Positions 7,889 through 14,681 of a stretch of 64,000 nucleotides of DNA are shown here, piece by piece. How positions within the stretch are numbered: position 1 is the stretch's first letter; each line of letters starts with the position of its first letter. This stretch comes from Acidimicrobiales bacterium (lineage in GTDB: Bacteria; Actinomycetota; Acidimicrobiia; Acidimicrobiales; Aldehydirespiratoraceae): NCBI GenBank assembly GCA_029263175.1, contig JAJCXZ010000028.1:1-64000 (forward strand). The letters run 5' to 3'. The notes beneath the pieces are model-generated. The model was not told the origin of the DNA and searched no databases. It saw nothing but the letters and a program-made list of their open reading frames with translations. Made by a program: the position numbers and the translations under genes.

Positions 7889-10312
7889 GTGTCTCGACAG
7901 CTCGAATTCGAGCCTAATTTTGCCCGCGAAGTCGTCGACATCTCCGTCGCCGACGAGATGAGCGAGAGCTTTCTCGCCTACTCGCTTTCCGTCATCACCT
8001 CCCGCGCCATCCCCGACGTTCGTGACGGCCTCAAGCCCGTGCAACGCCGCATCCTGTGGTCGATGCTGCAGATGGGTGTGCGACCGGGTACCCCGTTTCG
8101 CAAGTCCGCTCGAATCGTCGGCGACACGATGGGTCGCTATCACCCGCATGGAGACGCCGCGATCTACGACACGCTCACCAGGATGGGCCAGGACTTCTCG
8201 CGGATGGTGCCGTTCATCGACCCCCAGGGCAACTTCGGCAGCCTTGACGACCCGCCGGCCGCCGCTCGCTACACGGAGTGCCGCCTTTCGGATGCGGCCA
8301 TGGAGATGGTGCGCGAGCTCGACGAGGACACGGTCGACTTCAAGCCGACCTACGACGGTGAGGGTGACGAGCCCGTCGTCCTCCCGGCCCTGCTCCCCAA
8401 CATCCTCGTCAACGGCACCACCGGAATCGCTGTGGGTATGGCCACCAACATGGCGCCGCACAACCTGCGGGAGGTCGCCAAGGCCATCGAGCTCGTGATG
8501 ACCAAGCGGCGCCCGAAGCCGACCATCGAAGAGCTCATGGCCGTGCTCCCGGGTCCGGACTTCCCGTCCGGTGGCATCGTGGTGGACGACGGACTCATCG
8601 ATGCCTACGAGACAGGGCGCGGCAGTTTCCGTATCCGGTCCCGCGCTCACGTCGAGCAGATCACCCGCAACCGCCAGGCCATCATCGTCACCGAGCTTCC
8701 CTATCAGGTGGGCGCCGAGCGGGTGATCGCCAAGGTCCAGGAGCTGGCCAACAACGGCAGGCTCGTCGGCATCGCGGGCATCGCCGACCTCAGCGACATG
8801 CACGGGCTCAAGATCCAGATCGACGTGAAGCCGGCCGTCAACCCGCAAGCGGTCCTGCAAGAGCTCTACCGGCTCACTCCGCTCGAAGAGACCTTCGGGA
8901 TCAACAACGTGGTGCTGGTCAACGGCGTGCCCACCACGTTGGGTGTCCACGACCTGTGTCGTCACTACATCGAGCATCGGCTCGAGGTCATCGTCCGGCG
9001 TACCGAGTACCGACTCGCCAAGGCCCAGGACCGGCTTCATATTCTCGATGGTCTACTCATTGCCCTCGATGCGATCGACGAAGTGGTGCGGATCATCCGA
9101 TCGTCGCAGAACGCGGCCGAAGCCCGCGAGCGGCTCGTCGAACGGTTTGGGCTGAGCGACGTGCAGGCCGTGCACATCCTCGACATGCCGCTGCGGCGCC
9201 TCACCGCGCTCGCAAAGCTCGAGCTTGAAGAGGAGGCTGCCGGCCTCCGCACCGATATCGCCGACTATGAGCGGCTGCTCAAGAGTGAGGACCGCCGTCG
9301 CACGCTCGTCCTGAGGGAGCTGGGCGCGCTCGTCGACACCCAGGGAGTTGAGCGCCGAACCGAGATCGTTGCGGCCGACGACATCCCCGTCTTCGAGGTT
9401 CCGAAGGAGAGCGACGCCGCCTTCGACCCTGACTCCGACGAACCCTGCGTGGTCACATTGTCCACCTCGGGCAACATCGGGCGGGTCCCGCTGGAGGGTG
9501 CGAAACGGGGGGTGGTCGGACGCCACGATCTGATCGCTTCCAGAGTTGTCACGTCGACCGGTTCGCCGATCGCTGCGGTCACATCGGAGGGCCGGGCATT
9601 TGTGGTGCGCGGCGGTGAAATCGCCGATGCCGGCAGTCGTACGCGGGGCGGGCTGGCCGCACAGCTGCTCGGCCTCAACAAGGGTGAGGAAGTGCTCGAG
9701 CTGGTCACGGCCGGCGAGGAGAACCTGATGCTCGTGACCGCCAACGGCGTCGCCAAGCAACTCACTCCTGAAGAAGTGATGGGCACGAAGCCAGGAAAGC
9801 CGGTCATCGGCCTCAAGGGCAACGATCGAGTCGTCGCGGCGTTCCGTCTGCCCGTCGGGGTCGACATCGTCATGGTGGCCACTGACGGTCAGACACTGCG
9901 TATTGCCGCTGACACGGTTTCCGCTCAAGGCCGTGGTGCGGGTGGTGTCGCCGGGATGAAGCTCAAGGGTGACGCTCAGATCGTCGGCGCGGCCGCCCTT
10001 CTCGGCGATGGAGCGGTGATCACGATCACCTCGGAGTCCGGGGCCAAGGGCACACCGTTCGACGAGTTCGAATCCAAGGGACGAGGCGGTCAGGGTGTGC
10101 GGGTCGCCAGGCTGTCCAGCGGTGAGTCCATCGTGGCCATGTGGGTCGGCAACGCATCGTTCGATGGTTTGCTCGCCCAGATGGCCGACGACGATGATCC
10201 CAAGAGGCTCGACCCGAACCCGGTGCCCTTCGACGTGGAGGTCACCAAGCGGGACCTCGTGCCGACCCGCACCGAACGTCAGGTCCTGGTCCTTGCCCCC
10301 ACCAGGTGGTGA
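7889..10312 (+). CDS. parC: DNA topoisomerase IV subunit A (type IIA topoisomerase)
   Basis: An 807-residue type IIA topoisomerase A subunit, which breaks and rejoins DNA for decatenation. The breakage-reunion domain has the catalytic tyrosine Y128 in AARYTECRL, and the C-terminal half has the repeated strand pairs of the beta-pinwheel. There is no clear GyrA-box, only a degenerate SRTRGGLAAQLLG, and the partner B subunit lies 2.3 kb downstream, so topoisomerase IV fits better than gyrase. The quinolone region reads HPHGDAAIYDT, with Ala90 at the position of E. coli GyrA Ser83 and Asp94 at Asp87. Start is the GTG at 7889. The intervening genes between parC and parE are unusual. Confidence 0.88.
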   Translation: MSRQLEFEPNFAREVVDISVADEMSESFLAYSLSVITSRAIPDVRDGLKPVQRRILWSMLQMGVRPGTPFRKSARIVGDTMGRYHPHGDAAIYDTLTRMGQDFSRMVPFIDPQGNFGSLDDPPAAARYTECRLSDAAMEMVRELDEDTVDFKPTYDGEGDEPVVLPALLPNILVNGTTGIAVGMATNMAPHNLREVAKAIELVMTKRRPKPTIEELMAVLPGPDFPSGGIVVDDGLIDAYETGRGSFRIRSRAHVEQITRNRQAIIVTELPYQVGAERVIAKVQELANNGRLVGIAGIADLSDMHGLKIQIDVKPAVNPQAVLQELYRLTPLEETFGINNVVLVNGVPTTLGVHDLCRHYIEHRLEVIVRRTEYRLAKAQDRLHILDGLLIALDAIDEVVRIIRSSQNAAEARERLVERFGLSDVQAVHILDMPLRRLTALAKLELEEEAAGLRTDIADYERLLKSEDRRRTLVLRELGALVDTQGVERRTEIVAADDIPVFEVPKESDAAFDPDSDEPCVVTLSTSGNIGRVPLEGAKRGVVGRHDLIASRVVTSTGSPIAAVTSEGRAFVVRGGEIADAGSRTRGGLAAQLLGLNKGEEVLELVTAGEENLMLVTANGVAKQLTPEEVMGTKPGKPVIGLKGNDRVVAAFRLPVGVDIVMVATDGQTLRIAADTVSAQGRGAGGVAGMKLKGDAQIVGAAALLGDGAVITITSESGAKGTPFDEFESKGRGGQGVRVARLSSGESIVAMWVGNASFDGLLAQMADDDDPKRLDPNPVPFDVEVTKRDLVPTRTERQVLVLAPTRW

Positions 10313-10347
10313 TACGCAACACCGGCACAGGCCCCACGGTTACGTCG

Positions 10348-10956
10348 TCAGCTGAAGTCGGGAAGCGATTCCAGGATCTGCTGCTGCTCGTTAGGGCCGA
10401 AACCGAAGAAGACATTGCTTCCGCCGCTCAGATCGGGGGTGAGGAGCGCCATCGACGAGTTGGTGCGTACCCCGAAGTTCCGCCACGTGTCGAAGCTCGG
10501 GTCCCAGAGGAACGTGATCTCGTCGCCGAGGTCGTCGTGGGTGACGAACTCCTGCGCATAGCCGAAGTCGTCCTGAGTGCCGAGCCCGATGACCTGGACC
10601 TCGTCTGCGTGCTCTCGGGCAAACTGCCCGATCTCTGACCGCTCCCCGCGGCACGTCGGTCAATGCGGTGCCCAGAACCAGAGCAGCACCGGTCGATCCC
10701 CGTCGACCGCGTCACGCAGGCTGGAGACGCTGCCGTCGTCGACAGACAACACTTCGATGTCACGAACGTCGTCGGACGTGGCGAGGTTGGCTTGGTTCGC
10801 CGCTGCCGTAGAGGAGGCGTCAGGGGTCCCGGCGACAGCACTGGATGCCGCATCGCCGGTCTCGGTTGAGCCGCTGGCGCCGCAGGCGGAGGCCAGCAGC
10901 GCGAGGCCGATGACGACAGCTGCGGCCTGCGGGCGCGGAAAAGGGGAGGAGACCAT
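10348..10956 (-). CDS. candidate selenoprotein: thioredoxin-fold lipoprotein with UxxC active site
   Basis: From the ATG at 10956 there are 98 codons: a signal peptide with lipobox LASAC, a Ser/Thr/Ala linker, and a thioredoxin strand PVLLWFWAPH. An in-frame TGA follows at 10662-10660, then PTC and a further 100 codons in the same frame to a TGA at 10350-10348. The continuation is good thioredoxin sequence: VIGLGTQDDF strand, a FLWDPSFDTWRNFGV segment, and a SSMALLTPD cis-Pro-region equivalent. The TGA thus replaces the first cysteine of WAPxCxxC, giving U99-P-T-C102. This is the classic pattern of a Cys-to-Sec redox protein of the TlpA/ResA type, 202 residues if U is read. A recent nonsense mutation is the alternative, but there is no decay downstream. 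It is convergent with parC. Confidence 0.8.
10638..10652 (-). promoter_or_regulatory. SECIS-like hairpin after the in-frame TGA
   Basis: On the minus strand, GCCGC (10652-10648) pairs with GCGGT (10642-10638) around the loop GGGGA (10647-10643). The stem starts 7 nt after the TGA and the loop starts with G. A competing longer fold pairs the TGA itself: TGACCG (10662-10657) with CGGTCA (10641-10636). The geometry matches the hairpin at 1303-1318. Confidence 0.5.

Positions 10957-12629: not shown

Positions 12630-14680
<2,051 letters not shown>

Positions 14681-14681
<1 letters not shown>

Follow-up and report, generated by a model that had tools for sequence, protein, structure and literature searches.

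The window, the whole stretch of 64,000 nucleotides that was analysed, carries on its minus strand (10348..10956) a gene for a thioredoxin-fold lipoprotein that is almost certainly a selenoprotein of 202 residues with selenocysteine (Sec, U) at residue 99. The frame starts with an ATG at 10956, meets a TGA as codon 99 (10662-10660), continues through 103 sense codons and ends at a second TGA (10350-10348). The first TGA (10660..10662, minus strand) occupies the first position of a UPTC redox motif, and the catalytic half of the thioredoxin fold lies beyond it (10351..10659, minus strand), including the resolving Cys102 and Ser167. The translation begins with a putative lipoprotein signal peptide (10879..10956, minus strand) closing in a lipobox-like LLASAC, of a type that also adjoins homologues; Cys25 would be the lipidation site. 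Under translation table 11 the frame splits, leaving a 98-residue ORF (10660-10956); on the plus strand, an ORF of 110 amino acids with a GTG start covers 10306-10638.

With Cys placed at the TGA, the window protein matches the Redoxin (E 2.8e-10) and AhpC-TSA (E 1.3e-8) profiles and Mycobacterium tuberculosis DsbF (3ios; E 1.9e-14), with homology on both sides of the TGA. WFWAPHUPTC aligns onto DsbF WFWAPWCPTC, and the TGA falls exactly on the first active-site Cys. A sequence-only reading of this DNA had proposed that the TGA stands for the first Cys of a CxxC motif, that the frame runs 103 codons past it to a second TGA, and that a gene caller would be left with a 98-residue fragment; the DsbF alignment together with a TGA column conserved in the 30 best sequences, the translation with its TGA-spanning homology, and the split frame bear out these three points.

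Judged from their translations, a parC-like gene (DNA topoisomerase IV/gyrase A subunit; 7889..10312, plus strand) converges on the selenoprotein gene, and a parE-like gene (B subunit; 12630..14681, plus strand) lies on its other side, with an acyl-CoA dehydrogenase gene in between. Genes of the parC or parE type occur near the family in 10-12 loci; clustering of the neighbourhoods gave three mixed contexts (parC/parE, PstS-like and gcvT/merR-like genes) and no functional lead.

Conservation of the in-frame TGA

A homologue is present in 95 of 119 related genomes, and nearly all strong matches hold exactly one stop, TGA. The TGA stands in an identical alignment column in all of the 30 best-scoring sequences, the window included; where homologues with Sec or Cys at residue 99 had been anticipated from the sequence, the best relatives have TGA and the Cys homologues TGT or TGC. 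The next stop follows 98-111 codons past the TGA in the best 30, except in one copy with further stops, and at the homologues' aligned ends the final stop is TGA, TAG or TAA. Between near relatives, most differences fall at third codon positions, before the TGA as well as after it. Scanning named genomes for WFWAPHUxTC, a pattern that demands TGA and is uninformative on the share of Cys forms, recovered at least 80 loci, and the collection holds at least 84 distinct Sec forms; among the matches listed, nearly all are titled Acidimicrobiia, Acidimicrobiales, Acidimicrobiaceae or Actinomycetota, and the others include some called just 'bacterium' and a single Acidobacteria. The least credible alternative, a sequencing or assembly error at a true TGC or TGT, such as a single wrong base could produce in a MAG-like draft genome, is for practical purposes excluded because the TGA recurs independently in dozens of assemblies from many projects, at the same codon and with a covarying hairpin, and because a second paralogue in the source genome has the same design.

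One relative (L029 and L060, G027:C10:94785-95372) has a second in-frame TGA directly past UPTC (UPTCU) and a TAG further on; these extra stops may be due to degeneration of the gene, to an error of assembly or to a second Sec. Six loci (L052, L062, L073, L087, L114 and L127) contain tandem Sec-thioredoxin lipoprotein genes about 1.0-1.9 kb apart, some with a gene for a PstS-like phosphate-binding lipoprotein close by.

A covarying hairpin downstream of the UGA

The SECIS element that had been assumed to lie just downstream of the UGA was found as a hairpin, UCGGGC-AGUUU-GCCCGA (10615..10631, minus strand; 7 bp as folded, with an apical GUU), whose loop lies 34 nt past the UGA. Folding gives -10.5 kcal/mol (z -4.2), with a stem of 6-7 bp and a loop of AGUUU or GUU. 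Published rules for bacterial SECIS elements (bSECIS) specify a loop of 3-9 nt with G in one of its first two positions, a stem of 4-16 bp, a distance of 16-37 nt from the UGA and an MFE <= -7.5 (PMC13188914), and the window hairpin falls within all of them.

RNAalifold recovered the hairpin unprompted at the same place in an alignment of 29 sequences, as TCGAGC-AGTTC-GCTCGA in most and TCGGGC-AGTTT-GCCCGA in the window. Of the 174 pair cells in these sequences, 98.3% hold standard pairs, as against at most 47% in slid controls, and none of 500 shuffles reached the observed covariation score; both the counts and the shuffles take related sequences as independent. Compensatory changes exchange C-G and U-A at one pair and A-U, G-C, U-A and C-G at another, the latter counted over 84 distinct Sec sequences as A-U 68, G-C 8, U-A 4 and C-G 2. 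Because the hairpin sits within coding sequence, its covariation is also a signal at the level of codons: in 82 of 84 sequences, codon 14 after the UGA, an Ala codon, has a third base that goes with the middle base of codon 11 (GAG or GAC with GCT, GGG with GCC, GTG with GCA, GCG with GCG, GCA with GTG). Thus, a substitution that changes the protein goes together with a change, usually a silent one, three codons further on. Sec forms keep 5-6 of the 6 pairs, and five Cys homologues keep 2-3.

The Rfam SECIS models gave no match to the window at E <= 1, a null result that carries no information, given how much these elements differ in sequence among bacteria (PMC13188914). Another hairpin, which begins with the UGA (UGACCG/CGGUCA), was considered as the SECIS element and rejected: it folds in the window, yet it is lost in relatives such as L020, and the G+C-rich repeat at this place persists in the Cys form of genome G007.

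Selenocysteine machinery and its loss

The source genome is an Acidimicrobiales MAG of 4.4 Mb in 111 contigs, 97% complete. The sequence-only reading had made its case depend on selA, selB, selD and tRNA-Sec in this genome, and all four are present: tRNA-Sec on contig 30 (64 bits, above the Rfam cut-off; called by ARAGORN as tRNA-SeC(tca), anticodon TCA), selA (386 bits) and selB (278 bits) adjoining each other on contig 75, and selD (355 bits). The selD gene (L017, G000:C3:15979-16917) itself has an in-frame TGA (SHGAGUGCK), followed by a hairpin, GGCGCA-GGTCG-TGCGCC, whose GGUCG loop begins 32 nt past that TGA; on account of both features, SelD is probably a selenoprotein as well.

Counted over genomes whose homologue reaches E <= about 1e-10, selA is present in all 55 with a TGA homologue and in 1 of 6 with a non-TGA best match (Fisher p 1e-6, uncorrected for kinship and therefore an overstatement of the evidence, because related sequences are counted as independent). 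Two genomes of one genus illustrate the association. G015 has selA, selB and the TGA form with its hairpin; tRNA-Sec was not found in this assembly, which is 83% complete. In G007, the Sec codon is TGT (Cys), the hairpin retains 3 of 6 pairs and counts as lost, and searches of the assembly (91% complete) gave no selA, no selB above the cut-off and no tRNA-Sec, the two matches over the cut-off being tRNA-Gly and tRNA-Ser; chance absence of all three genes is unlikely but possible. The tree places G007 beside G015, nested within the Sec clade with support of 99/85. The pair is a clean within-genus case of Sec giving way to Cys as the whole Sec system goes, a direction that a 2026 review calls rare in bacteria (PMC13188914). 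A same-genus species, G002, holds only a decayed copy (L143, G002:C33:7081-7435), in which a stop stands for the active-site Trp, Arg is encoded in place of Sec and the frame is broken, and the protein is therefore dispensable there; selA and tRNA-Sec are present despite the decay.

Two alternatives for the UGA, each very improbable, can be weighed on this evidence. If it were a genuine stop, the locus would be a nonsense-mutated pseudogene or would yield a truncated 98-residue product, with the downstream similarity a relic. The decayed copy in G002 and the further in-frame stops of one relative lend this some colour, but the identical TGA in dozens of species, a downstream frame under protein-level constraint (mostly third-position changes), homologues whose final stops lie at the same place and the confinement of TGA forms to selA genomes argue strongly against it. 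No more credible is read-through by a near-cognate tRNA or a code change, inserting Trp, Cys or Arg independently of the Sec system: open frames alone do not reveal the inserted residue, but the full Sec machinery is present, the hairpin conforms to the bSECIS rules, the UGA tracks selA, the codon turns to Cys rather than Trp where the machinery is lost, and the second TGA, 103 codons on, works as a stop, judging by where the homologues end in the alignment. Taken together, the frame, the conserved UGA, the machinery, the covarying hairpin, the co-loss, the homology and the predicted fold make it nearly certain that the UGA at 10660-10662 encodes Sec in an exported thioredoxin-fold protein; Sec insertion itself is predicted from these lines of evidence.

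In the proposed mechanism, SelA would make Sec-tRNA-Sec using the selenophosphate of SelD, SelB would carry the Sec-tRNA-Sec, recognise the hairpin with its AGUUU loop 34 nt past the UGA and insert Sec at 10660-10662, translation would not terminate there, and the second TGA would act as the true stop. The product would be exported and, if the lipobox is used, anchored by lipid, with Sec as the attacking residue. Outside the membrane, Sec99 would attack a substrate disulfide or an oxidised sulfur group, and Cys102 would resolve the resulting selenenyl-sulfide.

Fold, probable role and relation to known families

AlphaFold2, provided with 50 aligned Sec forms, predicts a thioredoxin fold (pLDDT 95.3) in which U99 (model residue 39) of the UxxC motif stands where the first long helix (40-55) begins, in agreement with the TlpA/redoxin-type profile match. 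Structure search with the predicted fold finds DsbF, MPT53, Etrx1, CcmG and ResA as nearest. M. tuberculosis DsbF (3ios) and MPT53/DsbE (1lu4), the best matches by sequence as well as by predicted structure, share the fold and the exported thioredoxin-like architecture with the window protein but have CxxC in place of UxxC. Structure search also brought up thioredoxin folds that act outside the cytoplasm, namely Streptococcus pneumoniae Etrx1/Etrx2 and the TlpA-like reductases CcmG, ResA and StoA, all of them Cys forms. At the cis-Pro position, sequence alignment places Ser167 (R-T-N-S-S; codon 10456-10458, minus strand), where DsbF has Pro; the fold is assigned from the profile match, the predicted structure and the structure search. 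Among 85 aligned members, this position reads Asn-Ser in 34, Gln-Pro in 39, Asn-Pro in 8 and Gln-His in three, Asn-Ser occurring in several further clades besides that of the window.

The source genome has three CcdA/DsbD loci, at least one of them adjoining a Cys-type thioredoxin, and a search of it for VKOR (PF07884), the partner in the DsbF system, gave no match; no ccdA lies beside the selenoprotein gene. Because of the three CcdA/DsbD loci and the absence of a VKOR match, we favour a reductase over a VKOR-coupled oxidase: the window protein is probably a CcdA-fed extracytoplasmic reductase, re-reduced most likely by a CcdA/DsbD-type membrane protein, a link suggested by the presence of such donors in the genome. 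DsbF belongs to the oxidative rather than the reductive system of mycobacteria, and kinship with it counts against this role. Indeed, that the selenoprotein is instead an oxidase resembling DsbF or MPT53, or a peroxide-reducing enzyme, is a possibility of some substance, if the less likely one: its closest solved homologues are those two mycobacterial proteins, the Pfam matches are to Redoxin and AhpC-TSA, and the Ser at the cis-Pro position in the window's clade means that the substrate-binding loop differs from that of ordinary thioredoxins. Against it stand the missing VKOR, the three CcdA/DsbD-like proteins and the motif itself, UxxC being the layout of thiol-disulfide oxidoreductases and not that of the TxxU peroxiredoxins (PMC13188914).

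The same source counts 119 selenoprotein families in prokaryotes, among them UxxC proteins of the Redoxin family and thiol-disulfide-isomerase-like proteins (PMC13188914). Its Table 1 entries 'Redoxin family protein' (PF08534, which the window protein matches) and 'Thiol-disulfide isomerase-like protein' (cd02966) are likewise thioredoxin-fold UxxC proteins with Sec first, and the window protein may belong to one of them; the closest catalogued families have HEU0032618.1, MBA3499694.1 and MGB1650493.1 as reference sequences. None of the NCBIfam selenoprotein thioredoxin models (e.g. NF047660, HUIPC; NF041054, WAxxUGC) scored above its cut-off for the window protein; NF041054 has weak matches in 13 of 50 family members, and NF047660 is absent among the families listed. 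The literature search for selenoproteins of Acidimicrobiia found no description. Membership among the already known UxxC redoxin/TlpA-like selenoproteins is very well supported and modestly surprising. More tentatively, the sequences may constitute a distinct Acidimicrobiia family of extracytoplasmic UPTC thioredoxins, in which the window's clade has exchanged the near-universal cis-Pro for Asn-Ser; if so, which we consider rather doubtful, this would hint at a substrate chemistry unlike the usual exchange of disulfides, and the lack of annotation would follow from gene callers stopping at UGA.

Ordinary gene annotation would halve such genes. Acidimicrobiia probably make widespread use of selenium-dependent redox chemistry at their surface, and the family's sequences could calibrate SECIS prediction in high-GC Actinomycetota.

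A paralogue in the source genome (L049, G000:C4:33293-33814, minus strand) encodes WFWAPWUPTC with an in-frame TGA at the same residue, a lipoprotein-like start and, downstream, a SECIS-like hairpin, CCGGTGC-GGTC-GCACTGG, with a GGUC loop. Unlike the window protein, it keeps Pro at the cis-Pro position, and it belongs to a clade of its own that also takes in forms from other families of actinobacteria. Its gene adjoins dihydrolipoamide dehydrogenase-like genes.
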